Part shown: positions 5,457-48,609 of the stretch, in pieces
Layout: each line of letters starts with the position of its first letter
How positions within the stretch are numbered: the first letter of the stretch is position 1
IMG/VR virus record: IMGVR_UViG_3300043172_000336
Location: 1 to 58,377 of that record
Strand: one strand, 5' to 3'
DNA length: 58,377 nucleotides
Origin: a virus
Made by a program: the position numbers and the translations under genes
Notes under the pieces: model-generated
What the model was told of the DNA's origin: nothing
Seen by the model: only the letters and a program-made list of their open reading frames with translations
Databases searched by the model: none

Positions 5457-6173
5457 ATGACGAATATTGTTTGCTGGAAATGGGACGACCCCGGCTATGT
5501 ACGCGGGGACAAGCTCCTACCAGAATATTACAATATCCTTTACGCGATGCTGGAGCGGAATATTACACTCCCGGTCTGGGACCTTATCGTGCCCACTGAC
5601 GACACCACCGGCCTTAACCCAAATATCGTTGCGGTTCCGCAACCTTCTTCACTGTCTATACGATCGCCGCACGGTAATCGCTTCCCGGCCTGCTACCGCC
5701 GTCTATGGAACTTCTCGCGTGACGCGCAATACCTTTTCGGCAACCGATTCCTCTGTATAGATGTGGATGTCATTATTGTTCGCAACATCGACGCTATGCT
5801 CACTCGCCCTGAAAAATTCGTTGGGTGGACTGACCCGGACTTTAAGTGGGAGAAAATCGCGGGCGGTCTGTACTACATGCAGGCGGGCGCACATCCCGAA
5901 GTCTGGGATGACTTTGATCCGAAAACTTCACCGGCCATTGCAAAGGCCGACGGCAGACACGGTTCCGACCAGGGCTGGATCTCCCACAAACTTTATCCGC
6001 CCGATGCATCGTTCGGACGCAAAGACGGAGCCTGGTACGCGAAATGGATTCCACCGGGGCTTAATATAACGCCAGCGGAAGTGAAGATCGTCAGCACTCC
6101 AGGTTCAGAGAAACCGTGGCACGAGTCGCTCCAAACTAAACACCCTTGGATCAAGCAGCACTGGAGGCTCTGA
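5457..6173 (+). CDS. GT-A-fold glycosyltransferase with D-V-D motif, cassette copy A
   Basis: This 238-residue protein should transfer a sugar from a nucleotide sugar in the cytoplasm. The key evidence is F-P-A-C-Y-R-R-L-W-N-F-S at about 77-88 followed by F-L-C-I-D-V-D-V-I-I-V. Asp102 and Asp104 form the metal-binding DxD of GT-A enzymes. Further conserved-looking parts are G-G-L-Y-Y-M-Q-A-G and H-G-S-D-Q-G-W-I-S, the latter shared with the paralogue at 10230-10943. The pattern is GT8-like, but the exact CAZy family cannot be fixed by eye. The next gene starts on its stop codon (TGATG). Donor and acceptor are unknown. Confidence 0.75.
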   Translation: MTNIVCWKWDDPGYVRGDKLLPEYYNILYAMLERNITLPVWDLIVPTDDTTGLNPNIVAVPQPSSLSIRSPHGNRFPACYRRLWNFSRDAQYLFGNRFLCIDVDVIIVRNIDAMLTRPEKFVGWTDPDFKWEKIAGGLYYMQAGAHPEVWDDFDPKTSPAIAKADGRHGSDQGWISHKLYPPDASFGRKDGAWYAKWIPPGLNITPAEVKIVSTPGSEKPWHESLQTKHPWIKQHWRL

Positions 6174-6892
6174 TGGACGACGTTACTATTATCGTGCCGT
6201 ACTACCGAAACCCTCTGATGCTGGAGCAGCATGTTCGGTCCTGGGATCTGTTCCCATACAACTTCAAATTTATCGTCGTTGACGACGGCAGCCCTGAACC
6301 AGTAGAGTCGATTCCTAACTCACGGATTAAAGTTCTTCGCATAGAAGAAGACATCCCGTGGAACCGAGCTGGCGCTCGTAACCTTGGCGCACATGTTGCA
6401 GACACCGATTGGATAATCCACATGGATATCGATCATTTTATGCCGCTCAACACAGCCGTCGCCCTGGCCCAATTCACTGCGCTCTCGGACCACTGGTATC
6501 GGTTCGCCAGGTACCGGTTCGGCGCGGCGGATGCTACGCGCAAGAAAGATGATCTCCCTGACGACGTGATGTTTGGCAAGGTCAAGCCCCACATGGACTC
6601 CTACATGGTTGAGCGGAGTATGTATTGGGCGCTCGGTGGGTACGACGAGGACTACTCAGGCTCTCTGGGCGGCGGTGTGCCGTTCGTTAAGGAGCTGGAG
6701 AAGGCAGGCATCCGGCAGGACCTGGACGACCCCTACTACCTGTATGTGTACACTACGGACGCCATATCGGATGCTTCTGACTCATCGCTGAGTCGGGACA
6801 AGGCACGGTATAGCGAGATCCGCAAATCCAAGGCTGATGGAAAAGTACCTAAAAAGGAGCCGTTGCAATTCAAATGGAAGACCGTAGATTAA
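6173..6892 (+). CDS. GT2 family glycosyltransferase, copy A
   Basis: The 239 residues begin M-D-D-V-T-I-I-V-P-Y-Y-R-N-P. F-I-V-V-D-D-G-S-P-E-P at about 32-42 is the nucleotide-binding site, and M-D-I-D-H-F with Asp85 and Asp87 is the DxD metal site. A G-G-Y-D-E-D-Y-S-G block around 160 resembles the acceptor-side E-D segment of GT2/GalT-C enzymes. The start at 6173 (TGATG with the previous stop) is preferred over 6146. It is paralogous to 8347-9060. It probably works with its cassette neighbours on one glycan. Confidence 0.8.
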   Translation: MDDVTIIVPYYRNPLMLEQHVRSWDLFPYNFKFIVVDDGSPEPVESIPNSRIKVLRIEEDIPWNRAGARNLGAHVADTDWIIHMDIDHFMPLNTAVALAQFTALSDHWYRFARYRFGAADATRKKDDLPDDVMFGKVKPHMDSYMVERSMYWALGGYDEDYSGSLGGGVPFVKELEKAGIRQDLDDPYYLYVYTTDAISDASDSSLSRDKARYSEIRKSKADGKVPKKEPLQFKWKTVD

Positions 6893-8181
6893 CAACCTAT
6901 CCCAAAGTTTGGGATGAAGCGGAGACACTCAACCGGCTAATGCGGGGCGCTTCGCTTGCTCGCTTTGGTGACGGCGAGATCAAGCTCATGCTCGGCGGCG
7001 ACCAACTGCGTGAGCCAAAGAACAAGAGGCTCCAGGCTGAACTTCTCGCGGCGCTGAATATCAAACTTCCGAATTACATTATTGGTATCCCAACCATGAA
7101 CCCGGAGGGGTTGAAGTATGTCTTCTGGCATAAGTTCGAAGCACGGATTTTGAGTATTTTGAAGAAGCGCCCGGAATACCATTCTGCGTTTATTACTCGT
7201 CCTGACAGCGCCCCCTGGATAATGAATCGCACGTTTGTCGAGTGCTTTCGATCACTGTGGTTTAATAAAAGGGTTACACTCGTTGCAGAAGACAGCAAAG
7301 TAAAAATTCATAAGGTGATCCATGACTATGCTAAAAAACTTACTCTTGTACGCTGTCCGCATGATGAAGCGCACGCCTCCATTGATGTACTCGAAGATCG
7401 AGTTGTGGCTTCTGATCCTGAGATCGCAATTTTATCCGCCGGTCCTACTGCTACTTGTCTTGTTCCTCGTCTTGTTAGGCGTGGCATTCAGGCAATAGAT
7501 GTAGGGAGCATCGGCGGGCTGCTGCTTACTGTGTTCCCATTAAAAGATGTCGAAGTCTATGGTGAGGTCCAGACACTTGATCTTGTATTAGCCGGAGCCA
7601 GCATCGCCCGCTTCGGTGACGGCGAACTTAAGATCCTGCGAGGCCACGACATCGACTGCCAGCCGTGCCACAAACATTTACGCGGTGCGTTCCAGAAGAT
7701 CATCCTTAACCAGAACCCTGAGATCCTTGTCGGTATTCCACGCCCTGATAAGCTCAGCCCGAAGTACGAGAAGTGGATGGGTTTCATGGCCCACTACGAA
7801 GGGTGGCTCAGCCGGAAGCGTCCGTACGGATCTGCGTTTATTACTCGGGCTGATAGTGCCCCCTGGATCGATACCCCGGAGTACTGGGCCAAGCTGAAGC
7901 AGCTTTGGGAAGGGAAGCATGTTTGCCTGGTCTGGGGTGGAGAGACAGCTTCACTGGTCCCCGCTAAAGTGCGGGGTACAAAACAACTCGATAAGATTAA
8001 GTCGCGCCCCAATAATGCGTGGAAAGACAAAGATAATATCCTCAACCAGATTCGAAAGTTGCAGCCTCAACCGGAGGTCGTCCTCCTCTGCCTGGGGCCG
8101 ACAGCAACTGCACTCGTCCCGGACATCGCTGCCATGGGCATCCAGGCAGTTGACCTCGGCCACGTCGGGAGATGGATGTGA
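6874..8181 (+). CDS. Tandem-duplicated GT-D (DUF1792-type) glycosyltransferase
   Basis: The 435 residues are two copies of one domain of about 215 residues. Each has A-R-F-G-D-G-E (Asp33/Glu35 and Asp249/Glu251), the DxE metal motif of the GT-D fold. Each also has a central S-A-F-I-T-R-x-D-S-A-P-W block and a C-terminal G-P-T-A-T-x-L-V-P then G-I-Q-A-x-D-x-G block. Known single-domain GT-D enzymes add glucose during O-glycosylation of serine-rich streptococcal adhesins. Two active-site motifs in one chain could mean two transfers or an intramolecular dimer. The copies have diverged at protein level, so the duplication is not recent. It overlaps the preceding gene by 19 bases. Confidence 0.8.
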   Translation: MEDRRLTTYPKVWDEAETLNRLMRGASLARFGDGEIKLMLGGDQLREPKNKRLQAELLAALNIKLPNYIIGIPTMNPEGLKYVFWHKFEARILSILKKRPEYHSAFITRPDSAPWIMNRTFVECFRSLWFNKRVTLVAEDSKVKIHKVIHDYAKKLTLVRCPHDEAHASIDVLEDRVVASDPEIAILSAGPTATCLVPRLVRRGIQAIDVGSIGGLLLTVFPLKDVEVYGEVQTLDLVLAGASIARFGDGELKILRGHDIDCQPCHKHLRGAFQKIILNQNPEILVGIPRPDKLSPKYEKWMGFMAHYEGWLSRKRPYGSAFITRADSAPWIDTPEYWAKLKQLWEGKHVCLVWGGETASLVPAKVRGTKQLDKIKSRPNNAWKDKDNILNQIRKLQPQPEVVLLCLGPTATALVPDIAAMGIQAVDLGHVGRWM

Positions 8182-8354
8182 TCGCTGCCTTCAAAGGTGT
8201 GCCCGAAGCTGAGCGCCTGGTCGAGGCCGTTCGGAATTATAAAGGGGGTGATGACCACGAAAGAAGGTTTTTACGCGGCGTGGTTACCTTCTATAAAGCC
8301 CGCCAGCAGCGACCGCAGGTGGTGAGATTTCTGGAGTATGTGCTGTATGGATAA
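8172..8354 (+). CDS. Small hypothetical protein in the glycan cassette, 60 residues
   Basis: It overlaps the end of the GT-D gene. The ATG at 8172 has its GGGAG too close, so GTG at 8178 (six bases from GGGAG, forming GTGA with the previous stop) may be the real start, giving 58 residues. The protein is charged and helical (P-E-A-E-R-L-V-E-A-V-R-N-Y, then F-Y-K-A-R-Q-Q-R-P-Q-V-V-R-F-L-E-Y). No family is recognised. It may assist the flanking transferases, judged only from position. Confidence 0.5.
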   Translation: MDVIAAFKGVPEAERLVEAVRNYKGGDDHERRFLRGVVTFYKARQQRPQVVRFLEYVLYG

Positions 8355-9060
8355 TATTCAGCTCATCTATCCGTACTACGACAACCCCGGCATGTTCTAT
8401 GAACAGCAGTCCGTTTGGGCTGAGTGGGACCGCGAGCTTAAAGCTAAAGTCAAGATCATCATGGTCGATGACAGTAGCCCTAACGACGCCGCTGAAAAAT
8501 ATTACTGCTCCGTCCCCGGCCTGGACTTTGAACTATACCGGGTGCATAAAAATATCCCCTGGAATCAGAACGGCGCTCATAATCTCGCCATGCACGTAGC
8601 TGATGACGGCTGGTGTTTGATGACGGACATCGATCATGTGCTGTCGAACGAGAACCTGGCGAGGCTGTTAGCCATCGAGCCAGATGAAGGCATGTACTAC
8701 ACTCTTGGGCGGCGTCAGTTCGGCCATCTACGTGTGCCTTATAAACGGCACCCCAATTCCTGGCTCCTGACGAGGGAGATGTTTTTGACGAGCGGCGGGT
8801 ACGACGAAGACTTCTCTGGATACTACGGCTCCGACAGTGTTTTCAAAGTCGCGCTTTCTCATGTAGGAACGCACATCAAACTCGAACTGCCATATCTTAT
8901 TGTATATAACGAGGACGACATTCCAGATGCAAACACGCGAGAGTTCGAGCGTAAGCATTCGAAGTACTGGAGTTTGAATCACCCTCACCTGTTAGCAAAA
9001 CGCCGCCACTGGCGGATCGCCTTAAACCCCATTCGATTTCCCTGGGAGCGCATACTATGA
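8347..9060 (+). CDS. GT2 family glycosyltransferase, copy B
   Basis: The 237 residues align with copy A: M-D-N-I-Q-L-I-Y-P-Y-Y-D-N-P at the start, I-I-M-V-D-D-S-S-P-N-D for nucleotide binding, and M-T-D-I-D-H-V with Asp94 and Asp96 as the metal site. The start at 8347 is chosen because it matches the N-terminus of copy A; an in-frame ATG at 8338 adds three residues. N-I-P-W-N-Q-N-G-A-H-N-L parallels D-I-P-W-N-R-A-G-A-R-N-L in copy A. Sequence difference between copies suggests separate donors or linkages. Confidence 0.8.
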   Translation: MDNIQLIYPYYDNPGMFYEQQSVWAEWDRELKAKVKIIMVDDSSPNDAAEKYYCSVPGLDFELYRVHKNIPWNQNGAHNLAMHVADDGWCLMTDIDHVLSNENLARLLAIEPDEGMYYTLGRRQFGHLRVPYKRHPNSWLLTREMFLTSGGYDEDFSGYYGSDSVFKVALSHVGTHIKLELPYLIVYNEDDIPDANTREFERKHSKYWSLNHPHLLAKRRHWRIALNPIRFPWERIL

Positions 9061-9704
9061 AACTCAGTCACGGCTGGTACCACCACGATGTGATGAAAGG
9101 TCTCGGAACGTACATCCGTCGCTCGGGGGTTATTGACGCTGCTATGAAATATCTACCTCCTGAGCGCCGCCGCACAGTCCTCCAGGCAGGAGCGCACCAA
9201 GGAGTCTGGCCTGTCACTCTTGCGAAACTTTTTGAGCATGTGTTCGCGTGGGAGCCAATGCCAAGTAACTGGGAGTGCCTCGTCAAGAACACTGAAAAGA
9301 TCGACAACATTACGATTACGCTGGGCTGCCTCGGTGAGGAAGTAGGTGAAGTAATGCTTGAGGATAAGTCCAATAAAAATACGGGCGCATCTTTTATTAA
9401 CCCCAGGATAGGCACGCAGAGTGCGAAGCAGTTTCGTCTTGACGACTACAATTTCCCTACTCCTGTGGATGCGCTGTTCCTCGATGTTGAAGGGTACGAG
9501 CTTAAGATTTTATTGGGCGGCCACATCCTCATACACAACGACCGACCGGCACTGATTGTTGTCGAGGAAAACGGCTTACAGAAACGTCGATTCAGAATGC
9601 CTGAAAAGGCACTCGGTAAGTACCTGGAAACTTTTGGGTACCAGGCCGTGGAACGCTGGGAAGAAGATGTGATTTATATTCTGGAGGACAATCATTATGA
9701 TTGA
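9057..9704 (+). CDS. FkbM family methyltransferase
   Basis: This 215-residue S-adenosylmethionine-dependent methyltransferase has the nucleotide-binding glycine loop V-L-Q-A-G-A-H-Q-G-V-W at about 41-51. It also has W-E-P-M-P-S-N-W and the FkbM-type block D-A-L-F-L-D-V-E-G-Y-E-L-K-I-L-L-G-G at about 138-155. Family members O-methylate sugars or polyketides and often sit in surface-polysaccharide clusters. Overlaps on both sides (ATGA at 9057; 8 bases with the next gene) put it inside the cassette operon. Methylation of the assembled glycan is the likely role. Confidence 0.8.
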   Translation: MKLSHGWYHHDVMKGLGTYIRRSGVIDAAMKYLPPERRRTVLQAGAHQGVWPVTLAKLFEHVFAWEPMPSNWECLVKNTEKIDNITITLGCLGEEVGEVMLEDKSNKNTGASFINPRIGTQSAKQFRLDDYNFPTPVDALFLDVEGYELKILLGGHILIHNDRPALIVVEENGLQKRRFRMPEKALGKYLETFGYQAVERWEEDVIYILEDNHYD

Positions 9705-10233
9705 TGCAGTAGAGGAGGGGTATCTTATTTCCCCGGAACACAAGGCGCGGTACGTCGAGTACTACGCCGACCGTCCCTTCAAAGATCGACCTCATAAATG
9801 GCAGGAGAAGGTCGAAGCGATTGCGAAGAAGATCGAGGCGAAGTCAGTCCTCGATTACGGGTGCGGCGTAACTCAGGCTTTGTCTCGTTGGTCGTCCCTG
9901 CCTGTGACGGACTATGACCCCGTCATTCCCCACCTGGACTGCCCTAACTTTAATCACAAGTTCGATCTGGTTGTCTGCAATCATGTCTTAGAACATGTCG
10001 AACCTGAGCGGCTCCACGATATCCTAGCGCATATAAAGAGCCTGACTGGTAAGGTCGTCTACATCGCGCTCTCCACTAAGCTGTCTACAAAGAAGCTCCC
10101 TGACGGTACTGAGTGGCATCTGCTTGTCCACAATAAAAAATGGTGGAACCAGCAGTTCAAGAAACACTTCCGAGCCTTCCACATCTTCGAGTCAGATGAG
10201 CGGACCTTTGAAATAATATGGGTGAGAAAATGA
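9697..10233 (+). CDS. Class I SAM-dependent methyltransferase
   Basis: The 178 residues contain S-V-L-D-Y-G-C-G-V-T-Q-A-L at about 49-61 (motif I), D-Y-D-P after it, and F-D-L-V-V-C-N-H-V-L-E-H-V-E-P (motif II/III). This is the Methyltransf_11/23-like Rossmann pattern. GGAGG precedes the start. It is unlike the FkbM enzyme next to it, so two methylation steps or two substrates are likely. The substrate is unknown. It could also act on a lipid or nucleotide precursor. Confidence 0.75.
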   Translation: MIDAVEEGYLISPEHKARYVEYYADRPFKDRPHKWQEKVEAIAKKIEAKSVLDYGCGVTQALSRWSSLPVTDYDPVIPHLDCPNFNHKFDLVVCNHVLEHVEPERLHDILAHIKSLTGKVVYIALSTKLSTKKLPDGTEWHLLVHNKKWWNQQFKKHFRAFHIFESDERTFEIIWVRK

Positions 10234-10943
10234 TTAGAGTAGTATGTTGGTTATGGCCTCCAATGCGAAAATACCGAACGACGTTCACGTATGAACACGT
10301 CAACATCTTTCGCAACATGGTGGAGCGCCACCTGCACATGGAACACGAGGTTGTATGCATTACGAATATGGCAGATCGTATTGATCCTCGTGTCCGTATT
10401 GTTCCGCTGTGGGATGACTATGCTGATGTTGCTTCTCCTCATGGTGGTTTTTCTCCAGCGTGCTACCGAAGACTTAGAGCATTTTCCTCCGAGATGGAGA
10501 ATGTAATTGGCCCGCGTTTTGTTTCGATGGATCTCGATGTCGTCATTGTTGACGATATAACCCCCCTGCTGGACAGGGAAGATGACTTCGTTATTTGGGG
10601 GTCAGTGTTACGGGACACGCCATATAATGGCTCGATGTGGATGATGGACGCAGGCGCTCGCGAAGTGGTCTGGACTGATTTCAATCCGAGTATTTCGCCC
10701 ACACTGACGAGGAAAGCTGGCCTCCACGGATCTGACCAGGCGTGGATGAGCTACCGTCTCGGGGCACTTGAGAAGCGGTGGACACCTAAAGGTGACGGCG
10801 TGTATGCTTTCAGGTCGGATCTAAAACGTCGCCGGTATACGTTACCTGACGACACTAAGATTGTTTTCTTCCAGGGTGCCAACGACCCATGGGATGAATT
10901 TTCACGCAGGGTCGCGCCGTGGATCATGGAGCATTATAAATGA
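10230..10943 (+). CDS. GT-A-fold glycosyltransferase with D-L-D motif, cassette copy B
   Basis: This is a paralogue of the 5457-6173 enzyme. It shares F-S-P-A-C-Y-R-R-L-R-A-F-S, then F-V-S-M-D-L-D-V-V-I-V with Asp101 and Asp103, and H-G-S-D-Q-A-W-M-S. Residues M-M-D-A-G-A correspond to Y-M-Q-A-G-A in copy A. The start at 10230 forms ATGA with the previous stop; a frame from 10218 would add four residues. Its own stop overlaps the terminase start (ATGA), so the last cassette gene is directly coupled to packaging. Confidence 0.75.
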   Translation: MIRVVCWLWPPMRKYRTTFTYEHVNIFRNMVERHLHMEHEVVCITNMADRIDPRVRIVPLWDDYADVASPHGGFSPACYRRLRAFSSEMENVIGPRFVSMDLDVVIVDDITPLLDREDDFVIWGSVLRDTPYNGSMWMMDAGAREVVWTDFNPSISPTLTRKAGLHGSDQAWMSYRLGALEKRWTPKGDGVYAFRSDLKRRRYTLPDDTKIVFFQGANDPWDEFSRRVAPWIMEHYK

Positions 10944-34085: not shown

Positions 34086-36148
34086 TGGCTTACGACGCAG
34101 CAAAATATGACATAGCCGGTAGCTTCTCACGGGGTCGTGAAGGCACACTGAAAGCTAAGCGTGCCCGGCAGCGGATTAAATCTGCTGATATAAAGATTAA
34201 GAACGAGTCGGATTCTTTGGAGTCTCGCCGCCGCACTCAGCAGCGAGACAGAGGCCGTAGCGGGATGCCTCCGCTGGAGTTTGAGAACTACGACACAGAC
34301 ATGCGAGGGCCAGTCAAACGGACTCTGGACTGGATCAAGGAGCGGTCGGCAAATAAAATTAGCCCTGATGCACCAGGCGAAGCTAATTCGACGCAGTATG
34401 CGGAGGAGTATAAGTTAGGCACTCGATATCAGATGGCCCAGACTGCGGCAAAGTCCAAAGAAGCGCAGATGCAGGGGCAAGAAGATGAGATGCTTGCCGA
34501 ACGTTATGCCACGGAAGAGTTTGAACAAGCCGAGATCCCGCAGTACGCGAATGGTGGTCGAGCTATCCCCTCAACTTCACCCAGCGTGAACAGCTACGCT
34601 GACGGTGGAGCGGTAGATGATGGCGGGCAACCAGTGCAGCATGAGGAGCATCGCCCAGGGGTGTTTACTGTTGGCGCTCAACGTGACGCCCCTCTTAATA
34701 GTGTCGTCCCGCAGATGGCTGACGGTGGGATACTGCAGATGGCTGGCGGTGGCGTGGTCGCATCAGAGAGAACACTCTCAGCAGCAGAACGACTCAACCA
34801 GTATGAAAAGGCCAAGAACGCTCCGAGGCCGAGCCAGGCTTTAAGCCCTCAACAGAATCTCGAAGCTCGTGGTGGCGTGCGCGGAAATGTATCGAAGGGC
34901 CGGGGCTTTCTGAACTCACGAGCAGCTCGCATACCTACTTCGGCAATAGGAAGGGGCCTGCGTCATGGCGCTCGTTTCGGCGTCGGTGCCCTTGCCTATG
35001 GCGCTGCTGAGACTGCTGTAGAGTCATACGGCACTGGCACTGATGAGTACCGTGAACGATATGGAATTCCAGAGTCACCGAACGATGGGTGGCGTCGTAC
35101 TGTTGACGATCTCGCTGTCCGTGGCAAAGGGTTCCTGGAAGACTTCGGTAATAAAATAACAGGTGGCGTGGCCGGTGACATCGGATCAGGCATGAACGCC
35201 CCCGACACTGCTATACCTCCTGAACTCCCATCGTCTGTACCACCGGTCAGCGAGGATGAAAAAGTCGGGCAGGACGCAAAGGGTGACGCCGAGCGTATGG
35301 CCGCTGAAGCGGAAGCTGCTAACAAGCCGCCGGGCGAGATTGATTTCTCGAAGGTTGACTTTAAGTCAGGTGACTTCCCCTCTATGACAGTTAAGGATTG
35401 GACTGCGTACCGCTATGCCACAGTTGCTGATCTTGTTGGTATGGGTGTCGGCTATGAAGACGCGCATGACCAGGTATCGAATACGCAGCAGAAGGAATTC
35501 CTTAACTACCTGAAGCAGGGACAGATGCATCTCGAAGTAGGTAATGCTCCCGCCGCTGCCGGTGCCCTACGTATGGCGTTCCAGCATTTCCCCAATGGTT
35601 CTGATGTAAAAATTGGAGTCCACCAAGACCCGAACACGGGCCAGCCTATTCTTCTGGGTATGGGTATGAATGATGAGACAGGTGAACCCGTCGGTCAGCC
35701 ACAATTTATGGATGCTCAGAAGCTCGGCATGATGATCGATAACTTTGGTAACCCTGCCTCGTTCCGTATGTGGACGAAGGATCGTGACGACAATACCTTC
35801 CGCGATAAAGGGCAGAAGATTGAGCAGCAGAGGGCTGATCAAATGGGGCGGTACCAGGAGAAAATGGGTACAGCTGCCCTTGGTCGAGCGTCAGCCGCGA
35901 TACAAGCCGCTGCGAATTCACTCGATGGTATTGAGGATGTCGCAGAGGCCACGAAACGAATTCGTGAAGAACTTTCAATCTCTGGTATTGAATATGATGA
36001 CCAGGTCAAGTTGCTGAGTATAATGGGTCAGATTAAACAGAACGACCCCGGTCTGATCTACCCTGAAATCTACCAACTGGTAGTAAGTCAGTACAAAGCT
36101 GACCCTGAACAACTTGATGAGATGCTTGATTCAATTGGGATACGCTAA
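34085..36148 (+). CDS. Internal virion protein, 687 residues, with A-D-G-G motifs
   Basis: The N-terminus is basic and helical (K-A-K-R-A-R-Q-R-I-K-S-A-D-I-K-I-K). Around 150-225 are four motifs Y-A-N-G-G-R-A-I-P, Y-A-D-G-G-A-V, M-A-D-G-G-I-L and M-A-G-G-G-V-V. The C-terminal third is helical (A-S-A-A-I-Q-A-A-A-N-S-L-D-G-I-E-D-V) and resembles internal proteins of podoviruses. It starts on the TAATG of the gene before and ends on the TAATG of the giant gene, so the three are probably made in fixed order and packed together in the head. Confidence 0.65.
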   Translation: MAYDAAKYDIAGSFSRGREGTLKAKRARQRIKSADIKIKNESDSLESRRRTQQRDRGRSGMPPLEFENYDTDMRGPVKRTLDWIKERSANKISPDAPGEANSTQYAEEYKLGTRYQMAQTAAKSKEAQMQGQEDEMLAERYATEEFEQAEIPQYANGGRAIPSTSPSVNSYADGGAVDDGGQPVQHEEHRPGVFTVGAQRDAPLNSVVPQMADGGILQMAGGGVVASERTLSAAERLNQYEKAKNAPRPSQALSPQQNLEARGGVRGNVSKGRGFLNSRAARIPTSAIGRGLRHGARFGVGALAYGAAETAVESYGTGTDEYRERYGIPESPNDGWRRTVDDLAVRGKGFLEDFGNKITGGVAGDIGSGMNAPDTAIPPELPSSVPPVSEDEKVGQDAKGDAERMAAEAEAANKPPGEIDFSKVDFKSGDFPSMTVKDWTAYRYATVADLVGMGVGYEDAHDQVSNTQQKEFLNYLKQGQMHLEVGNAPAAAGALRMAFQHFPNGSDVKIGVHQDPNTGQPILLGMGMNDETGEPVGQPQFMDAQKLGMMIDNFGNPASFRMWTKDRDDNTFRDKGQKIEQQRADQMGRYQEKMGTAALGRASAAIQAAANSLDGIEDVAEATKRIREELSISGIEYDDQVKLLSIMGQIKQNDPGLIYPEIYQLVVSQYKADPEQLDEMLDSIGIR

Positions 36149-39100
36149 TGCCCTCCTTCAAAGAGACATTTGGGGAGCCATTAACGTACGATCCGGTTGA
36201 TCCAAACAACGACACTCCACCTTCCCCCCGTCTGAAAGCAAAATCCTTTCGTGAGGTGTTCAGTCCCGGTGCCGATCCCGGTGCCGGTGCCGACCCGCCA
36301 CCCGACACGTTCGGGACTAAGAGTTTCGGGGAAGTTTTTCGTGGCCGGGCACGCCTCAACCCACAGCCTAAAGATGAGCCTAGTTTCGCAGGCGACATCG
36401 CTCGTGACCTCTTCTCCGGTGTAGTGCAGACAGGTGAGCTTGCCCTTGGCGGAATAGAATATGCAGCGCGACAGGCAGCAGGGGAAGAAGGTACCTTCGG
36501 CCAGTACATCATCGGCCAGGCGGTGGACCCACTGTCTGCTGCTCGTCGTGCAACAGGTGAATACGCCCAGCAGATCGTAGGCTCTATGTCACAGGAGTCA
36601 GAAGATCTGATCACTCGTGAGTGGACCACCCTGGACCCGGAGAGATCTGTATGGACTCAGGGGGTCGGTGGTGTCACCAAAGCAGTCCTGCTTAAAATGG
36701 CGCAGGCATTACCAGCCACGATAATCACGATGCTGCCAGCTGTCAGGTTATTCAAAGCCGGTATGACACCTGGTGCTATGGCCTACCTCGGTGCATCAGA
36801 AGGTGCGCTCTCTATGGGCGGCATTGCCGCTGGCCTGGCCCAAGAGATTGAGGGCATGACCCATCAGGAGTTACTGAATGAGTCCCCGGTTTACCAAGAG
36901 TTTATAAGCGGAGGGCTTAGCGAAGATGATGCACGTAGCCAATTGATTACCGCTGCCCAAGGTGCGGCACCGCTGATCGGCGGCATACTTGTAGGGTCTA
37001 TCGCTGCCACCGCTGGTAAATGGCTGGAGCCAATCATCGTCGGAAAGGGAGCGAAACTGGCTGGCCGGTTCGGTCGTGGCACAGCTGTTGAGGCCGCACA
37101 GGAATCCCCTCAGTCGGGTGTTGAACAGTTCATGCAGAACGTTGCCGCCCAGGTCTTCGACGCCGACAGGCAGCTCAGCGAGGGCGTAGCAGAGGCCATG
37201 ATCGAGGGCGGCATCATCGGTGGCTTGACCGGCGGTGTCTTCACGGGCGTGATGGGGGCCAGGCCACAGCAACCGGCTGGGCAGGCCCCTGAACAAGCCC
37301 CGGACCCCACTGAAGACTTCCCGGAGGCTGAACCCACTGACCTTAGTGCGGCCCTGGTTCCAGTAGACCAGCCGCTGGGCCAGATGGACCTTCCACTCAC
37401 ACGTAGGGAACGTGGATTTCCACGCGCCCCTATCCCCCCTGGTCAGCAGCCTGGACCTGACCCAACGGACTACAGTCCTGACCTGGGTCCACTTGGCGGT
37501 GCCCAGGACAAACTGTTCGGCACCCAGCCTAGTGGTGCCCAAGATCCCCGACAAGGTGACCTGTTCGACCCGGTAGCAGCTGGCGACACCACTGCGGAAC
37601 CTCTGAGGGACATCGAGGCCCAGATCCTGGAGATGCAACGCCCGGAGAGCGGCAAGGACGCCGTGTTCTTATCCTCTGCGAGCATTGAACATCTTCAGAG
37701 GTCTGGTGACCTCGAAGCGTTTTTGGATAGCGGTGTAGCCCTCACCAATTTCGATGGGGCGGGCGGTGTACTGTTAGCAAAGGACAGACAGGCAGCGGTG
37801 GGGTTCACTGAAGATCGGAATACCGGTGGTGATGTGGAGCGGATCATTGGCCTTGCTACTGGAGATGGTGTTGGGAAACCCATGTCACGGGTAGGCTCCG
37901 CGTTTGCAACCACGGTTGTACAACGCCGTGACGAAGCTGGGAACATTGTTCAGGAACGAGTCGTCGCCGACGAGGAGGAGGCTCTCCTTATTGAAGCTCA
38001 GTGGGAGCAGAAGTATCCCAACTTTGACATTATGATCAGGACCGCCGACGCCGTGCAGATGCGCCGGGCCGAGCGCGTACAACACGAAGATGCACAGGCT
38101 CAGGCCGTGGTTGCTGAGCAAGAATTGCAACGGCAGCTTGCGGAGGAGCGGGCCGACACTGAGCAAGAGTTCGATGTCGCTACCAGATTCCTTGACGAGG
38201 ATACCCGTACCCGAACAGCCGGTGCCCAGACTCCTACCCGAGCCGCTGCCCGACTGGTCGGCGAGGCCACTCGTCAGTCAGGTGAGCGACAGCGTATCGG
38301 TGGGTTCTACCCGCCCGAGGTTCTGGAATTCCAAAGCCCGACCGCTGGAAAGAATTACGACAAAGCGTTTACCGAACTGGTGGACCAAGAGATTACTATC
38401 AAGCAGGAAGAACTTGCTCGGGAAGACTGGCCCCGTGGTGTGCGCCCCAAACATTTGAAGGGTGGCACCGGCCAGGTTACGAAGCGTCTCTCCAAAGCTG
38501 GAGACAAAGCACGCAGTCGTCGGACTGCCCTGCTCCATGAGCTGGGTAAGATCCGTGCGAAGGCCAAGCCTATACGTAGGAAAGCAGCAAACATTATTGA
38601 GGCTGCTCGGGAGCTGTCACCTGAAACTGTTGAAGGCGCAGCCCGTGGTACTCCAGCTACGAAAGAACGTGAGGATACACCGGCAGCGGCAGCGATTCCT
38701 AACACGCAAATGCTGGGGAATCTAACTGACTCAAAAATAGATGTGCTTACCGGTGCAGAGCTTGCGAGAGTTTTCAAGCAGGCTGCCACCTGGATGGCTG
38801 GTCGTTGGATCGCACTACAGTTGGAGTACGAAGGCGGTCCGAAAACTCTGGAAAATATTCCCGAAGGTGCCGAGCTGCTGGCGATCAGTGTCCCCGTGAT
38901 GAAGACCAAGCAAGAGCTTTGGGTAATAGAGAGCGTTAAGAAAGGATCGCCACCGGAAGGCATGAAAGGTCCTTGGGTTGATTACGTGGTACGGCAAGGG
39001 GAGAAAGACCTAACGAAATACGTAAAGGAAGGGATGACAAAAGAAGAAATTAAGGAAGCGACTGCGAGAGATCTAAAGGAAAACACGAGTGTTGGTAAGC

Positions 39101-42100
39101 GGCGGGGTACTGTTAAGGCTACCCGTGCCTGGCTCACAGACGAAGGCAAGAAATCAAAGTGGTCGATCGTCTATAAGAATAACAAGATCAAAAATATAAA
39201 CACGAAGGGCATAGAGGAAGGGCTGACTATTGATCGGCTCTCGCAAGGCTACTCTACTAAGGCTGCCCAACGTAAATTGATCCGCCGGGTCAAGGCGTTG
39301 ATTGTTTCCGGGCGGCACGGCGGTTGGACTAAGTCGCCGGAAATATCTGCAAGTATTAAACAACGCCAGATGAAAGCAGAGGTAGATCCGGGGGTCCTCC
39401 GTCGTAGTGGGGCGTTCGATGTTACGGTTCTTGGGCATGAGGTCTTCAAGCAAGATGAGTCAACGCCCGATCGTCTGAAACGTATTGCATTATCTAAGAG
39501 GCTACGCGCTAACCTAGATAAAACGATCCGTCGTGCTGCCAAGCACATGAGTAAGATGAACTCCGGTAAGTTTGCTGACCTGATCAATGAGCGAGATGAC
39601 GGTAGCCTTACTGACGCAGCACGCGACATGATCCACGGCAAGGCGTACTTCCGTGTCATTGCTGAGTTCGCCACATCGCTGGTTCGATCTAAGAACTCGA
39701 ACAAAGATGTAAACGAGCAGATGGATAAGGTCGATCAATTTCTAAAGAAAGCAATCGGCCTGCCAGCGAAAGACTTCGCTCGGGTATTAGGTAGGTTGCT
39801 ACGGGCAGAGTCACAGACACAAGTCCGTAACATAGAGGGGTTCTCTGATGCCACGAAATCGACCCTCGCTAATCCGGCCCAGCGTGAAAAGAAAAACGCT
39901 GAAGCTACTGCTCGGTTGCTAGCTGCAATCGCACAGGCAAATCGGATGGAGCATTTTTGGAAGACGAACAGCTACTACAATAATATCGTTGCCCCCCTCG
40001 TGCATAAGTTTGCTAACTCTACAGCCAGTGATGGCTGGCCGAGCTACCAACCGACCGAGGAAGAACTGCAGCAGGTGCAGTGGGTAATGAAGGGATGGGA
40101 TATCCCTCGACTTCGAAAGGAGATGTATACACCGATCCGTAATTTCTTCAAAACCGCTGGGCTTGAATTTACCCCCAGAAAGAAAGACGGCACCGGAGGG
40201 GAGTTGATCATCCCTTACAACGAGGAAGGGAAGTACGACTACTCTCCTTCAAACTTCGCGTTGGAAAGTAAATTCAAGAAACGGTTTGGTAGTGCAGAAG
40301 ACACCAGGTGGGGTGGTATCTGGGACGACGTTGCTCGTCAGACCTACGACCCCCAGGCTGCCGAAGATGCTCGTGAAGACGCGATGAAGGCAGCAGACAC
40401 CAGGTCTGAGCTGGCGACGTTCACCCGACACGCCCAAGCCAATCGAATCATCGAGGAGTTCCGAACGTTTATCTCGAACCCGAAGACAACTATCCCTGGC
40501 ATGATACGTGCCGAGGAGCGCCTGATCCGTGTGTTCAAAGAGCTACGCATGTGGCGTGACACCCCCAGTCCCAAGATGGGACGTATCATGTTTGGTACAC
40601 CCCGCACTCATCGTATCGTTGGCCCTCGTCTTGCGGCGAAGGAGATACGTAAGGACGAAGCTCGGAAACTATTGCTTGCGTCAGTGAAGACTCAGCCCCT
40701 GCCTAAAGCCTGGCGGAAGAACGAAGCTGTCGCCAACGCTGCCCGAGAACAGGTCCGTGCCGAGACGGAGTCGTTCATGCAGGCTACTGATCCGGGGCCA
40801 AGCATCGGCCAGTTCCGTCAGACAGCAGCGATGCTCACTAATAAGCTGGACGATATAACCAACCCGATCAAGATGAATGAGCTTCTGGACATGATCGTTG
40901 CTGGTATTCCAGAGTCACATATGTACCACACCCTGGCGAATCGTATCCGTGCCCTGAATCTCGATGACGTTCTTGTGTCATGGGACTGGCGGAGCCAGAT
41001 CGAAGACCCGCACACAATGGGCCTCTCAAAGTGGGAAGAAGATCCGGCCAATGCCAATGGACAGCTGCGGTATATCCTGCTTAATAAACGAGGTCTCAGT
41101 AAGACACTACACAGACGTGAGCCTCAAGCCAGGCTGCTGCATACCCTCATGCATGAGGCGACACACATGGCGGTGAACGGTGCCATGGATAGAAACCTGG
41201 CAGTGCGAACAATGATGAGGCAGCTTAAGAGGCAAGCACTGGAGCAGTGGGCTACTAACCCAGCAGAACAGGGGAGAGACGTACCCTATGGGTTGAATGC
41301 TTTAGCGGTAGATGAGTTTGTGACCGAAGCATTTTCGAACCCTCAGTTCCAGCAGTTCCTGAAACGTACGAAGATACAGGGTGAAGCACAGACCTTCTGG
41401 CAGAAGATGTTGAATTTTGTTAGGCAGCTACTGGGCCTGCCAGCTAATGACGTACGCGCTACGAACGCACTCGAAGCGATCATGCAAACAACCGACATGC
41501 TATTCACGGGCGAGGTCCGTGACCTCACTGGCAAAGGTACGATGCAAGCGAACCTGGATGTCATGGACTCTGCTCTGAAACCCATCGCTCAGAGTGTCAT
41601 CGGTGACATCGGTAATTCTATGCAGGCAATGCAGTCGGGGTGGGACAAGGCTAAGAAGCTGCGCCTCCGTGCGCCGCTGCACCTCATGTCGATGCGTCAG
41701 ATCCACTACGAGTTCAGACGGTTCTTTAATGATGCCGAGGGTAAAAACCCACTGGACAGGTACAAGGAAGCATGGGAACGCCGCGACTCTGAGAACTCGA
41801 AGCTCATGCATGTCGGTGAGCTACTGTCTACTGTGTGGACAGGACTAACTGAGAGAGGTGGCGTAGCCAATGCCCTTGAGTTTTCAAAGGTGGCTACTGA
41901 AGCGTCACTCTATATGATGCACCCGAATCTCCCACTGGACCACGAGAAAAACGAACACATCACATCGAAGGAACAACACGCCAAGCACGCTGAGTTGGCT
42001 AGACGTTTTAACGCTATGTCGTCAGGCTGGCAGAGTTTGTGGAAGCAGGTGCAGAAGTACTACGCTAACGCCATTGCTGATGAGACTTCGCTCATCATGA

Positions 42101-44670
42101 TCAATGCTCTCCGTGGTGTAGTCTCCCGTGGGGATTACTCGGTCATGGACCGTGATGTATTCGATGCGAAGTATACGCAGGAGTCAGTTGCTGAGTTGAA
42201 ACTTGATACCCAGGAAGGTATACGTAAAGAGTTTCCTGACCTGGCTCCCGAACAGGTAACCGCCCTGGTTACGATCGCATCTATACCAACCCAACGTCGT
42301 GGTCCCTACTTCCCGATGATGCGCTACGGAGAATATCTTGTGTACTCTGAGAAAGAGACAGAGGCCAAGCGGTTCGCCGATAGGAAAGACGCGAATGCAT
42401 ACGCTGCCCAGCGGCGGGCTGAAGACCCGACACTTGATGCGAAGGTGAGAACCACAGGTGAAAACGAACACACGGCGGTCATAACTGAAAAAGATTTCAG
42501 GACGTTTGAGACACGTACCGAAGCTGATGCGACAAGGCTAGAAATGGTTGGGCTGTATGGAGAGACCGCCACATCATCTGTTCAGGTAAAGCATAAGTTC
42601 AAACCGGACGATACAGTTAGCTCTGGCTCTGCGCTCCGTCAAATCCTGGATAGCCTCGACGGGAATGCCAAAGCGCAATCCGCGATCAAGAACTGGTGGC
42701 TGCAGAATCTCTCTGACAGTTCATTCAGGAAGCACGAGATCAAACGAAAGAATCGTCGCGGTGTGGACTATGAGTCGCAGCATCGAAACTTTACTAACTA
42801 CGTGAAGAAGTCTGCGTACTATCGATCGCAGCTTAAGTACGGTAGAGAGATGGCGGACGGGATGCAGGACATCATTGACTACACGAAACAGTACAAGGAC
42901 ACCTCTGGGCCAGATGGAACCACGGCTGTACGGCTGGGCCAGGTGAGGAATCATCTGCAGAAACGTGACTCATTCCTGAACGATCTATCCGAGCCGTCGA
43001 AACTTATCCGTCGTGGTACTGAAGTCGGACAGCTGATGATGTTGTTCGGTCCTTCGTACTGGATGATCAATGCTACGCAACCGTATGTTGTAACTCTCCC
43101 TTGGATGGCCGCCCGGTATGGATGGGGTCCTGCGCTGGCAGTTCTCAAGAATGCTCAGCAGCTAATCATCAGTCCTCTCCTAACAGCCACGAAGGAATCA
43201 ATGGGCGGGATAAAAGCATTGACCTCCAAGGAGGCTGCCGAGAAAGCGTTCAATGTTGTGGACCAGGTGAAGGAAATCATTACCAAACGAGCTGGTGACC
43301 GGGCCTCTGCTTACAACGACATGATTGAACAGCTGCGTAATGTAAGCATCATTGATCTGTCGTGGATTGCTGAGCTGCGTGACATATCTGAGGGCCGGGA
43401 CACTGGTAAATTCCAGAAGACAATCGATGCCACCCGAGTCATGGGCCACCTCACTGAGGTGAACAATCGTATACTCTCGGCCATCGCTGCTTACGATCTC
43501 ATGTACCAGGACCAGGTAGGGAAAGGTCTCAACCACGACGATGCCCACGCAGCTGGTGTGGAGTTCGCTAAGGAATCGACATCGATAACCCACTTTGATT
43601 ACTCTGCTGGGAACAAGCCACTGCTGTTCCAGCCGAACGGACCCCTGGGTAAAGTATCGCCGTTGGTCTTCCAGTTCCTGCAATGGCCGCAGCATATGTA
43701 CGCGACGTTGATTGGTAACACGGCTGCCATGGTTAATGGGGGCACGGTCGATCGCATGGTGGCTGCCAAGACAATCGCCTACATGACGGGTACACACATC
43801 GCTGTCGGTGGCATGATCGGGGTGGCCCTGCAACCAATGAAGTGGGCGATCGGCGCTGCCTTGTACGCCTTCGGTGATGACGATGACATCAACAGTTTGC
43901 AGACAGTTGTCTCAGGAGAGACGTACGACAGGTGGATGAGAGAAGGGGCAACAGATCTCCTTGGGAAGAAGCTGGGCCACGCACTAGCGTCCGGTCTCCC
44001 GGCAGCGTTCTTAGATGTAGAGCTGTCCTCAAGGATGTCAATGGGAACGGTTTACTTCGTTGACCTGAAAACTGACACCGCAGAGTCAGCACTCGGTAGC
44101 CTCGCCGCTGGCTTAGGTGGCCCGTGGGTGAACATTGCGATGGGTGCTGCCAAAGGTTTGCCTATGATGGGCCGGGGTTTGTTCAAGGGGACAGGAGAAT
44201 TCCAGCGCGGCCTGGAGTACTTCCTGCCGAAAGCATTCAAGGACATCTCTAAGACAGTCCGCTATGCAACCGAGGGGCTAGTCAATAACGCTGGTGACAC
44301 AGTCATGGACACGGATGGTATCTCTGGGCAGCAGTTGTTCTTGCAGTCACTCGGGTTCCGTCCCGCCGAGATCGCTGACTTCTATTCACGCCAGGCTCTT
44401 ATTAAAGACACCGAGCGGTTCGGCAAAGAGCGGGCCAGTAGTTTGCTCAAGCGGTATCGAACTGCACGCAGCAGTGAGCAACGTAACAGGGTCTCGCATG
44501 AGATCGCCGTGTTCAACCAGGTGTTTCCTTACACGCCTATCACTTACTCATCGCTGTTACGAGCCGTAAAGGGTAAGCGTGAACGTGAGGCCAGCTACCG
44601 TCGATCTGGTGCCGCGCTGAGGGGCCGTGCTATAATGCTCCAACGCGAAGGTGAGTTCTATAAAAAATAA
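36148..44670 (+). CDS. Giant internal virion protein (2840 residues) with a zincin-type metallopeptidase domain
   Basis: This is the largest gene, 15% of the window. The N-terminus is Pro/Asp-rich. About 170-375 contain glycine/alanine-rich hydrophobic segments (P-L-I-G-G-I-L-V-G-S-I-A; G-G-I-I-G-G-L-T-G-G-V-F-T-G-V) that could insert in membranes. A long charged helical part follows. The motif L-M-H-E-A-T-H-M (His1669, Glu1670, His1673) with downstream D-E-F-V-T-E-A (Glu1723/Glu1727) fits a zincin peptidase. More hydrophobic helices lie near 2300 and 2540-2580. It matches the large polyvalent-protein class of phage ejection proteins. Roles in crossing the envelope and cutting a host protein are inferred. 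No RNA polymerase motifs were seen. Confidence 0.8.
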   Translation: MPSFKETFGEPLTYDPVDPNNDTPPSPRLKAKSFREVFSPGADPGAGADPPPDTFGTKSFGEVFRGRARLNPQPKDEPSFAGDIARDLFSGVVQTGELALGGIEYAARQAAGEEGTFGQYIIGQAVDPLSAARRATGEYAQQIVGSMSQESEDLITREWTTLDPERSVWTQGVGGVTKAVLLKMAQALPATIITMLPAVRLFKAGMTPGAMAYLGASEGALSMGGIAAGLAQEIEGMTHQELLNESPVYQEFISGGLSEDDARSQLITAAQGAAPLIGGILVGSIAATAGKWLEPIIVGKGAKLAGRFGRGTAVEAAQESPQSGVEQFMQNVAAQVFDADRQLSEGVAEAMIEGGIIGGLTGGVFTGVMGARPQQPAGQAPEQAPDPTEDFPEAEPTDLSAALVPVDQPLGQMDLPLTRRERGFPRAPIPPGQQPGPDPTDYSPDLGPLGGAQDKLFGTQPSGAQDPRQGDLFDPVAAGDTTAEPLRDIEAQILEMQRPESGKDAVFLSSASIEHLQRSGDLEAFLDSGVALTNFDGAGGVLLAKDRQAAVGFTEDRNTGGDVERIIGLATGDGVGKPMSRVGSAFATTVVQRRDEAGNIVQERVVADEEEALLIEAQWEQKYPNFDIMIRTADAVQMRRAERVQHEDAQAQAVVAEQELQRQLAEERADTEQEFDVATRFLDEDTRTRTAGAQTPTRAAARLVGEATRQSGERQRIGGFYPPEVLEFQSPTAGKNYDKAFTELVDQEITIKQEELAREDWPRGVRPKHLKGGTGQVTKRLSKAGDKARSRRTALLHELGKIRAKAKPIRRKAANIIEAARELSPETVEGAARGTPATKEREDTPAAAAIPNTQMLGNLTDSKIDVLTGAELARVFKQAATWMAGRWIALQLEYEGGPKTLENIPEGAELLAISVPVMKTKQELWVIESVKKGSPPEGMKGPWVDYVVRQGEKDLTKYVKEGMTKEEIKEATARDLKENTSVGKRRGTVKATRAWLTDEGKKSKWSIVYKNNKIKNINTKGIEEGLTIDRLSQGYSTKAAQRKLIRRVKALIVSGRHGGWTKSPEISASIKQRQMKAEVDPGVLRRSGAFDVTVLGHEVFKQDESTPDRLKRIALSKRLRANLDKTIRRAAKHMSKMNSGKFADLINERDDGSLTDAARDMIHGKAYFRVIAEFATSLVRSKNSNKDVNEQMDKVDQFLKKAIGLPAKDFARVLGRLLRAESQTQVRNIEGFSDATKSTLANPAQREKKNAEATARLLAAIAQANRMEHFWKTNSYYNNIVAPLVHKFANSTASDGWPSYQPTEEELQQVQWVMKGWDIPRLRKEMYTPIRNFFKTAGLEFTPRKKDGTGGELIIPYNEEGKYDYSPSNFALESKFKKRFGSAEDTRWGGIWDDVARQTYDPQAAEDAREDAMKAADTRSELATFTRHAQANRIIEEFRTFISNPKTTIPGMIRAEERLIRVFKELRMWRDTPSPKMGRIMFGTPRTHRIVGPRLAAKEIRKDEARKLLLASVKTQPLPKAWRKNEAVANAAREQVRAETESFMQATDPGPSIGQFRQTAAMLTNKLDDITNPIKMNELLDMIVAGIPESHMYHTLANRIRALNLDDVLVSWDWRSQIEDPHTMGLSKWEEDPANANGQLRYILLNKRGLSKTLHRREPQARLLHTLMHEATHMAVNGAMDRNLAVRTMMRQLKRQALEQWATNPAEQGRDVPYGLNALAVDEFVTEAFSNPQFQQFLKRTKIQGEAQTFWQKMLNFVRQLLGLPANDVRATNALEAIMQTTDMLFTGEVRDLTGKGTMQANLDVMDSALKPIAQSVIGDIGNSMQAMQSGWDKAKKLRLRAPLHLMSMRQIHYEFRRFFNDAEGKNPLDRYKEAWERRDSENSKLMHVGELLSTVWTGLTERGGVANALEFSKVATEASLYMMHPNLPLDHEKNEHITSKEQHAKHAELARRFNAMSSGWQSLWKQVQKYYANAIADETSLIMINALRGVVSRGDYSVMDRDVFDAKYTQESVAELKLDTQEGIRKEFPDLAPEQVTALVTIASIPTQRRGPYFPMMRYGEYLVYSEKETEAKRFADRKDANAYAAQRRAEDPTLDAKVRTTGENEHTAVITEKDFRTFETRTEADATRLEMVGLYGETATSSVQVKHKFKPDDTVSSGSALRQILDSLDGNAKAQSAIKNWWLQNLSDSSFRKHEIKRKNRRGVDYESQHRNFTNYVKKSAYYRSQLKYGREMADGMQDIIDYTKQYKDTSGPDGTTAVRLGQVRNHLQKRDSFLNDLSEPSKLIRRGTEVGQLMMLFGPSYWMINATQPYVVTLPWMAARYGWGPALAVLKNAQQLIISPLLTATKESMGGIKALTSKEAAEKAFNVVDQVKEIITKRAGDRASAYNDMIEQLRNVSIIDLSWIAELRDISEGRDTGKFQKTIDATRVMGHLTEVNNRILSAIAAYDLMYQDQVGKGLNHDDAHAAGVEFAKESTSITHFDYSAGNKPLLFQPNGPLGKVSPLVFQFLQWPQHMYATLIGNTAAMVNGGTVDRMVAAKTIAYMTGTHIAVGGMIGVALQPMKWAIGAALYAFGDDDDINSLQTVVSGETYDRWMREGATDLLGKKLGHALASGLPAAFLDVELSSRMSMGTVYFVDLKTDTAESALGSLAAGLGGPWVNIAMGAAKGLPMMGRGLFKGTGEFQRGLEYFLPKAFKDISKTVRYATEGLVNNAGDTVMDTDGISGQQLFLQSLGFRPAEIADFYSRQALIKDTERFGKERASSLLKRYRTARSSEQRNRVSHEIAVFNQVFPYTPITYSSLLRAVKGKREREASYRRSGAALRGRAIMLQREGEFYKK

Positions 44671-47295: not shown

Positions 47296-47494
47296 CGCGA
47301 GTGTTACTCTTGGCGTAGCTTCCCCCGTTCGACAGGGCCTTGACGTGATGGACTTCCTTCCCGTCCCCCTTGTGGACGGTGCCTGCCTTCTCCGCTTCGT
47401 GGCGTGATCTGTTCCTTGCCGCCCGATCCTTCTTCGCTTTTGGCCCAGCGTGGTACTTTTGGTAGTAGGCGTCGGTTGATTCTCGGGTCGGCAT
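47234..47494 (-). CDS. Small HNH-like nuclease-family protein
   Basis: The 86 residues begin P-T-R-E-S-T-D-A-Y-Y-Q-K-Y-H. They have a basic helix (K-A-K-K-D-R-A-A-R-N-R-S-R-H-E) and then E-V-H-H-V-K-A-L-S-N-G-G-S-Y-A-K-S-N-T-R-V-T. This matches the beta-beta-alpha metal core of HNH enzymes. The last H position is occupied by asparagine (K-K-N-R-S-Y), a variant common in small phage proteins, so catalysis is uncertain. It overlaps the DUF5664-like gene for about 190 bases in another frame of the same strand and the convergent gene by 62 bases. Confidence 0.65.
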   Translation of the reverse strand: MPTRESTDAYYQKYHAGPKAKKDRAARNRSRHEAEKAGTVHKGDGKEVHHVKALSNGGSYAKSNTRVTTRKKNRSYKRSAKNKPID

Positions 47495-47930
47495 CGGACT
47501 CGTCCTGAATGGTGTGCTGGTGTGGGTGCTTGTCTTCAAACAGCTGCTTCAAGTGTATCACGCTGGCCGCCATACCGTCGATGGCTGAGGCCGTGTCCTG
47601 GCTTGGTGGTCGGTCATCAGTGAGCTTACCAGAGTGGTAGGCGTCGAGGATAATACCCACGCAGGCCAGCACACTACCCAGGTGTGGGACATGTGTGACA
47701 GGGTCAGCCCACTCACCGTTCTGGTACTTAGCCAGGTGTCTATAGCAAGCGTCGAGGTAGATCGACACGCGGACACCAGCTGCACGCCAGTTGTATTTCC
47801 CGTACTTGCACGCACCTTCAGTGAACGCGAGCGCAGCGTACGCAGGCAAGACACTGGGGACCAGGTGAAGGGGGAGCTTGTCGGAACCGATCTCGTCCTT
47901 CGGGTTGCTTGACTTTGTGTCGTCGCTCAT
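47304..47930 (-). CDS. dATP/dGTP pyrophosphohydrolase-type protein (DUF5664-like)
   Basis: The 208 residues contain P-K-D-E-I-G-S-D-K-L-P-L-H-L-V-P, L-A-F-T-E-G-A-C-K-Y-G-K-Y-N-W-R and Y-R-H-L-A-K-Y-Q-N-G-E-W-A-D-P. H-L-G-S-V-L-A-C-V-G-I-I-L-D-A-Y follows. This is the helical, metal-binding pattern of a phage family annotated as dATP/dGTP diphosphohydrolase. Hydrolysis of deoxynucleoside triphosphates would tune the precursor pool. The last 60 residues (K-S-E-E-G-S-G-G-K-E-Q) are low-complexity and lie in the frame overlapped by the HNH-like gene, so the natural end may be earlier or a frameshift may be present. It starts by ATGA overlap. Confidence 0.65.
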   Translation of the reverse strand: MSDDTKSSNPKDEIGSDKLPLHLVPSVLPAYAALAFTEGACKYGKYNWRAAGVRVSIYLDACYRHLAKYQNGEWADPVTHVPHLGSVLACVGIILDAYHSGKLTDDRPPSQDTASAIDGMAASVIHLKQLFEDKHPHQHTIQDESDADPRINRRLLPKVPRWAKSEEGSGGKEQITPRSGEGRHRPQGGREGSPSRQGPVERGKLRQE

Positions 47931-48361: not shown

Positions 48362-48609
48362 TAGTATACGTCTCCATTGTTTCCTCGTTTGTGTTCTTCA
48401 TAAGGCGCTACCTTTCGGCGGTAGAATTCCTGCTTCGCACACTCCAACACGCCGATGATTTCGTTGAGGAGTTCATAGCTAACATCTTTGTCCTTCAAGT
48501 AGGCAAGGCAAGTCTTCGTGATGATGTAGTTGAGTTCCCCTGCGTCCATGGCAAAGCTGCTCTTGTTTCGGTCCAGTCTCTGTCGTTGTTTCTTTGTTAC
48601 GTATGGCAT
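48361..48609 (-). CDS. Small conserved phage protein (DUF6899-like)
   Basis: The 82 residues begin M-P-Y-V-T-K-K-Q-R-Q and contain G-E-L-N-Y-I-I-T-K-T-C-L-A-Y-L and Y-E-L-L-N-E-I-I-G-V-L-E-C-A-K-Q-E-F-Y-R-R-K-V-A-P-Y-E. The sequence ends N-G-D-V-Y. This is a compact helical pattern common in aquatic phages and catalogued as a domain of unknown function. It overlaps the sulfotransferase stop by one base (TAATG-type junction). The function is unknown; its frequent company with replication genes is the only clue. Confidence 0.7.
   Translation of the reverse strand: MPYVTKKQRQRLDRNKSSFAMDAGELNYIITKTCLAYLKDKDVSYELLNEIIGVLECAKQEFYRRKVAPYEEHKRGNNGDVY

Follow-up and report, generated by a model that had tools for sequence, protein, structure and literature searches.

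A phage gene predicted to join two GT-D glycosyltransferase subfamilies where two glycan-modification cassettes meet

The founding enzyme of the GT-D fold is GalT1, the N-terminal DUF1792 domain of the streptococcal protein dGT1 (4PFX, 4PHR, 4PHS, and 5V4A). The dGT1 of Streptococcus parasanguinis is a bifunctional GT-D fusion and transfers two sugars successively (PMC5063993). A search of the literature recovered no paper on phage GT-D enzymes, and the DUF1792 papers that were found treat bacterial adhesins. We know of no activity, donor, or acceptor for any phage GT-D. Here, a single gene with two GT-D domains is described from a 58,377-nucleotide stretch of phage DNA of environmental origin (IMG/VR record IMGVR_UViG_3300043172_000336, positions 1 to 58,377), hereafter the window.

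Two GT-D domains in one reading frame

An earlier note on this DNA had placed a two-domain enzyme at 6874-8181, with metal sites at Asp33/Glu35 and Asp249/Glu251, and these coordinates and residues, like the length of the ORF (435 residues), are exact (Table 1): the motif ARFGDGE begins at residues 29 and 245. The GPTAT and GIQA blocks that it had described were likewise recovered in both halves, at residues 190 and 408 and at residues 204 and 422, respectively, and a further motif, SAFITR, is present at residues 104 and 320.

Table 1. Positions in the window of the fused gene, its domains and residues discussed in the text, and the flanking cassette genes.
Feature	Position	Strand	Basis
Fused two-domain GT-D glycosyltransferase, 435 aa	6874..8181	+	ORF call, alignment of halves, Pfam
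N-terminal GT-D domain, cassette-A subfamily, residues 11-222	6904..7539	+	PF08759 68 bits, AF2, tree
C-terminal GT-D domain, cassette-B subfamily, residues 225-435	7546..8178	+	PF08759 97 bits, AF2, tree
D33-G-E35 metal-site motif, N half	6970..6978	+	
D249-G-E251 metal-site motif, C half	7618..7626	+	
Fusion seam, residues 218-226	7525..7551	+	Ends of relatives' N-type genes, starts of C-type genes
E139	7288..7290	+	Glu in 36/36 N-type rows; Gly in 26/26 C-type rows and GalT1
S212	7507..7509	+	Ser in 35/36 N-type rows; His in 26/26 C-type rows and GalT1
H430, conserved DLGH His, retained in C half	8161..8163	+	
GT1962a, cassette A glycosyltransferase like phrog_1962	5457..6173	+	
GT2a, cassette A GT2-family glycosyltransferase	6146..6892	+	
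GT2b, cassette B GT2-family glycosyltransferase	8338..9060	+	30% identical to GT2a
FkbM-type methyltransferase, cassette B	9057..9704	+	
MT23, Methyltransf_23-type methyltransferase	9697..10233	+	
GT1962b, phrog_1962-like glycosyltransferase, directly 5' of terL	10218..10943	+	

Searched as a whole, the fused protein matches the Pfam GT-D family (PF08759/DUF1792) in two stretches (2e-47), and each domain passes the curated cut-off of 27 bits when scored alone (96.9 bits for the C half and 68.1 bits for the N half). The sole relatives returned by phmmer from the PDB are the solved GT-D enzymes (4PFX, 4PHR/4PHS, and 5V4A), and a profile of the subfamily to which the N half belongs (N-type; that of the C half is C-type) retrieves GalT1 at 1.5e-30. 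AlphaFold2 (AF2) models, computed for each half from alignments of phage relatives, have confidences (pLDDT) of 93.1 for the N half and 94.2 for the C half. When aligned with VIA-align, the N-half model overlays 4PHR/4PFX with a Z of 25.0 (rmsd 2.5 A, 219 residues) and the C-half model overlays 4PFX with a Z of 24.8 (rmsd 2.2 A, 213 residues). The next structural family for both halves is GT-E (TagA/TarA) at a Z of only 8-9, so membership in GT-E (WecB/TagA/CpsF) was rejected. An arrangement of the dGT1 type, in which a GT-D is followed by a GT-A domain, was also rejected, as the second domain here is itself a GT-D. The overlay of each predicted half on the DUF1792 structure, which the earlier note had proposed as a check, therefore upholds its assignment of both halves to the GT-D fold with the D-x-E intact; that motif is invariant in the alignments of both the N-type and the C-type subfamilies.

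The two halves nevertheless differ at positions that probably belong to the active site. The C half carries the GalT1-like residues Gln263, Gly355, and His430 in addition to the profile match, the fold, and the D-x-E, whereas the N half, with the same profile match, fold, and D-x-E, has E47, E139, and S212 in place of the Gln, Gly, and His of GalT1 and of the C-type. The donor pockets are therefore probably not equivalent, being separated by three substitutions that are nearly fixed by subfamily. In an alignment of phage homologs (36 N-type and 26 C-type rows), position 47 is Glu in 33 of the 36 N-type rows and Gln in the C-type and GalT1, and position 199 is Arg in 35 of the 36 and Asp in the C-type and GalT1; counting also positions 139 and 212 (Table 1), GalT1 agrees with the C-type at each of the four. 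All C-type members keep the His of the C-terminal "DLGH" motif; its replacement by Ser212 in the N half is a detail that was absent from the earlier note. In the N-half model, residues 139 and 212 directly follow strands 133-138 and 206-209, where other motifs also sit, a placement that makes a location at the active site probable for both. Among columns at least 90% conserved within the respective subfamily, deviations number 3 of 42 in the N half and 7 of 49 in the C half, the latter exceeding every other row (maximum of 3); none of these deviations falls in the metal motif. Judging from these alignments, a difference in donor or acceptor between the N and C halves is probable.

Origin of the fused gene and of the cassettes around it

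The two halves are 34% identical over 206 aligned columns (E = 1e-38), a similarity that, as judged by sequence, far exceeds chance. Together with their equal length and common motifs, this identity would fit the internal duplication that the earlier note had assumed, in which one ancestral GT-D gene was duplicated in this phage and then diverged. Phylogeny and gene context argue otherwise. In trees built on 70, 103, 33, and 37 GT-D domains, the halves fall into different clades, and a topology in which they are constrained as sisters was rejected (p-AU of 0.002, and of 1.2e-5 once the closest C-type relative was added). The N half groups with single-domain phage genes from loci L041, L072, L116, and others, and its nearest relatives, which are single-domain with respect to GT-D, are about 50% identical to it (L041, L086, and L095). 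The C half is sister to the domain of L206 (support 100/99), and its nearest relatives in other phages are 48% identical (L206 and L207), or 57% over a partial stretch (L238). The genes that neighbor N-type and C-type domains also differ. Internal duplication is accordingly highly improbable, and it can be excluded for the fused protein as far as tree and synteny reach; the phylogeny instead identifies the protein as a join of two old phage GT-D subfamilies.

This history is matched by the surrounding genes, which are ordered GT1962a-GT2a-GTD(N) in cassette A and GTD(C)-GT2b-FkbM-MT23-GT1962b thereafter, followed by terL and the portal gene; GT1962a and GT1962b are 32% identical. Cassette B comprises GTD(C), GT2b, FkbM, and GT1962b. 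A GT2a-like gene, defined as one whose nearest match is GT2a, lies directly 5' of an N-type GT-D, or in the same ORF, at 34 of 41 non-redundant loci, and some of the contigs among the other 7 are cut off at that point. A GT2b-like gene lies within 6 kb downstream of a C-type GT-D at 16 of 26 loci, and GT2a is the nearest match near none of these 26. In four related phages (L116, L096, L102, and L122), whose terL is 67-78% and whose portal is 67-75% identical, cassette A precedes GT1962b and terL, and GTD(C) and GT2b are missing. Three others (L206, L207, and L238; terL 80-82% and GT1962b 70-73% identical) carry a fusion of GTD(C) with an FkbM-like part, followed by GT2b, FkbM, GT1962b, and terL, with cassette A absent from their available sequence. 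Because these relatives have one cassette or the other before terL and the window has both, the window is, on this sequence comparison, a mosaic of the two arrangements with its seam inside the fused ORF. The N-type genes of relatives stop, and their C-type genes start, near residues 218-226, indicating that almost no linker was added at the seam. A GTG codon at 7531, near the seam, is a potential start for translating the C half on its own. A small ORF on the same strand (8178-8354; about 58 codons from a GTG) overlaps both the 3' end of the fused gene and the 5' end of GT2b.

Fusions between genes of such cassettes seem to be frequent. GT2a and an N-type GT-D share one ORF in L102 (5116-6675), L110 (5158-6678), and L122 (5191-6645), a GT-D is fused to a Methyltransf_23-type methyltransferase in L062, L066, L070, L073, L078, L081, and L082, and a GT-D is fused to an FkbM-like methyltransferase in L206 and L207. 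Other long phage GT-D ORFs were considered as candidates for a hidden second GT-D, and every extra part that could be assigned belongs to a methyltransferase or a GT2 domain. Between two GT-D genes of L143, an ORF at 3587-4624 resembles, by eye, a nucleotide-sugar epimerase/dehydratase, which suggests that some cassettes also produce their own donor sugar.

The presence of GT-D in a phage, which the earlier note had considered unusual, is not so: three scans of IMG/VR confirmed 167, 198, and 195 loci per query, and single-domain GT-D genes are thus common among the phages of that collection. Only three INPHARED records match the fused protein. For the fused pair itself, the note's view was borne out, in that among 274 fetched loci it occurs only in the window and in contig IMGVR_UViG_3300037245_002550. 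As these two copies share an identical sequence across 10,460 bases, they do not count as separate evidence for a fusion that persists in nature. Adjacent but unfused GT-D genes occur in L145, L143, and L148, and what look like two stretches in L184 and in L188 are split matches of one domain. In bacteria, 398 genomes were sampled from each of two phyla; three per phylum (about 1%) have the family above the cut-off, and none of the 398 + 398 genomes encodes two GT-D domains in one frame. Humibacter sp. RRB41 (L176) has three GT-D genes close together, unfused, and a fourth elsewhere in its genome. No similarity was found between the cassette DNA and deposited phages; among isolates, a Rhizobium phage has the nearest terL (46%), with no annotated glycosyltransferase genes in the neighborhood.

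Far from the cassettes, the window encodes another carbohydrate-modifying enzyme, a sulfotransferase (48609-49181, minus strand; PF03567, 5.9e-7; PHROG galactose-3-O-sulfotransferase, 2.4e-8). An ORF of L207 located 5' of GTD(C) (1564-2154) has, by eye, a sulfotransferase-like start, and no significant similarity was found between it and the sulfotransferase of the window. The product of 47304-47930 (minus strand) has the N-terminal domain of a dATP/dGTP diphosphohydrolase (PF18909, 5.6e-21), which conflicts with its best PHROG label ("endolysin; inhibits RNA polymerase"); no homolog of PurZ (adenylosuccinate synthetase) was found in the whole record, and there is therefore no sign of a 2-aminoadenine genome. 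A 2840-residue ORF (36148-44670, plus strand) has a C-terminal PLxRFG (tail-700) domain (NCBIfam NF032893, 2.9e-83).

Proposed function and its alternatives

It is proposed here, with confidence that is evenly balanced, that the fused protein is a bifunctional glycosyltransferase whose GT-D domains differ in specificity and contribute two steps to a phage-encoded glycan. Two phage glycan-modification cassettes would have been brought together head to tail ahead of the terminase gene, and GTD(N), the last gene of cassette A, would have lost its stop codon and become continuous with GTD(C), the first gene of cassette B. Both domains would be active with different donors, each metal-dependent GT-D most likely moving one sugar from a nucleotide donor, and together with two enzymes each of the GT2 and phrog_1962 types and both methyltransferases they would build a methylated oligosaccharide. 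The presence of two GT-Ds in one chain, along with four more glycosyltransferase genes and two methyltransferase genes, suggests two transfer steps toward one methylated glycan, and the addition of two sugars in sequence is plausible by analogy with the bifunctional streptococcal dGT1. The acceptor would be soluble, within the infected cell, and most likely a virion protein. A more specific version, in which the GT-D domains, the N-terminal one with a Glu/Ser pocket unlike that of the characterized GT-D enzyme, perform two successive transfers and hand the product from site to site to generate a sugar pair on the virion, is unlikely.

How much of this applies to both domains depends on the N half, for which a GalT1-like action is less secure than for the C half. 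With no conserved His and an acidic residue in place of Gly, the N-type subfamily could perform other chemistry or be a binding module. Catalysis by the C-terminal domain alone, with the N-terminal domain serving in acceptor or donor binding, scaffolding, or regulation, would be consistent with the loss of a His found in every C-type row and in GalT1, with the Glu at the Gly position, and with the lower PF08759 score of the N half (68 versus 97 bits). Such a role is nonetheless rather improbable: the D-x-E is invariant across the N-type subfamily, and the N-type features are kept in 36 homologs, mostly standalone genes beside GT2a, which would be unexpected of a decayed domain. A stronger contender, and quite possibly correct, is that two independent enzymes are linked by a functionless accident or by an assembly effect, so that succession on the same glycan is not required. 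The frequency of fusions among cassette genes (GT2a:GTD in L102, L110, and L122; GTD:methyltransferase in L062, L066, and L081), the unfused, same-frame pair of L145 with its 6-bp gap, and the fact that the known fused copies are one identical sequence all favor an accidental link, which is compatible with two active enzymes. The long, stop-free frame of the fused gene and the good conservation of both domains speak against it.

The target of the glycan is a separate matter. Hydropathy analysis revealed no strong transmembrane segment in the cassette glycosyltransferase and methyltransferase proteins, which disfavors a lipid-linked surface pathway, and the cassette genes adjoin packaging and head genes. 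From this gene position and the missing membrane parts, a virion protein is the favored acceptor of the proposed methylated glycan. A Ser/Thr-rich virion protein was sought as acceptor without a clear candidate being found, the top 60-residue windows having an S+T content of about 0.30. Host glycans are a possible acceptor, and O-antigen and modified DNA bases are among the known substrates of phage glycosyltransferases. Given these precedents and a co-encoded sulfotransferase with similarity to galactose-3-O-sulfotransferase, the target might, instead of virion proteins, be phage DNA or a host surface polysaccharide, glycosylation of the latter resulting in superinfection exclusion or an altered receptor. 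This is somewhat unlikely, as the cassette proteins include no membrane glycosyltransferase or flippase-like segments and no gene for modified-base synthesis was found among the proteins scanned.

Significance and comparison with known systems

The GT-D genes compiled here form a large phage family, undescribed in the literature searched. It includes two or more subfamilies that are linked to fixed gene cassettes, and the window is a case of two such cassettes meeting and fusing. If the N-type is active, it would represent a second type of active site for a rare fold, and if virions bear such glycans, phages would swap whole glycan-building cassettes in the manner of surface modules. Since the fused protein holds both subfamilies in one construct, it offers a direct test of both.

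Among known systems, GalT1 shares with the window halves the GT-D fold, the D-x-E, and the GPTA and D-x-G motifs, but it comes from a streptococcal adhesin locus rather than a phage, its identity to them is only 25-30%, and its Gln/Gly/His set recurs only in the C half. Like the window protein, dGT1 is a fusion of two enzymes, and its transfers are successive on one glycan (PMC5063993); it pairs a GT-D with a GT-A, whereas the window protein pairs a GT-D with a GT-D. The GT2a:GT-D fusions of L102, L110, and L122 have the reverse domain order of dGT1. The GT-E enzymes TagA/TarA (5WB4, 5WFG, and 7MPK) show partial sheet similarity (Z of about 8-9), far below the Z of 25 for GT-D, and TagA is without the D-x-E (PMC6493773). 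In the L145 phage (IMGVR_UViG_3300009987_000001), two GT-D genes that belong to other tree branches than the window halves lie upstream of FkbM, GT2, and phrog_1962-type genes, unfused, in the same frame, and 6 bp apart, a spacing that suggests how easily such a pair may be fused. The single-domain phage genes, including TVGG_00047 of Tetraselmis viridis virus S20 and those of many IMG/VR contigs, have the same domains and the same neighbors (GT2, FkbM, and Methyltransf_23 types and a phrog_1962 glycosyltransferase) but one GT-D per protein, whereas the window fuses one from each subfamily.
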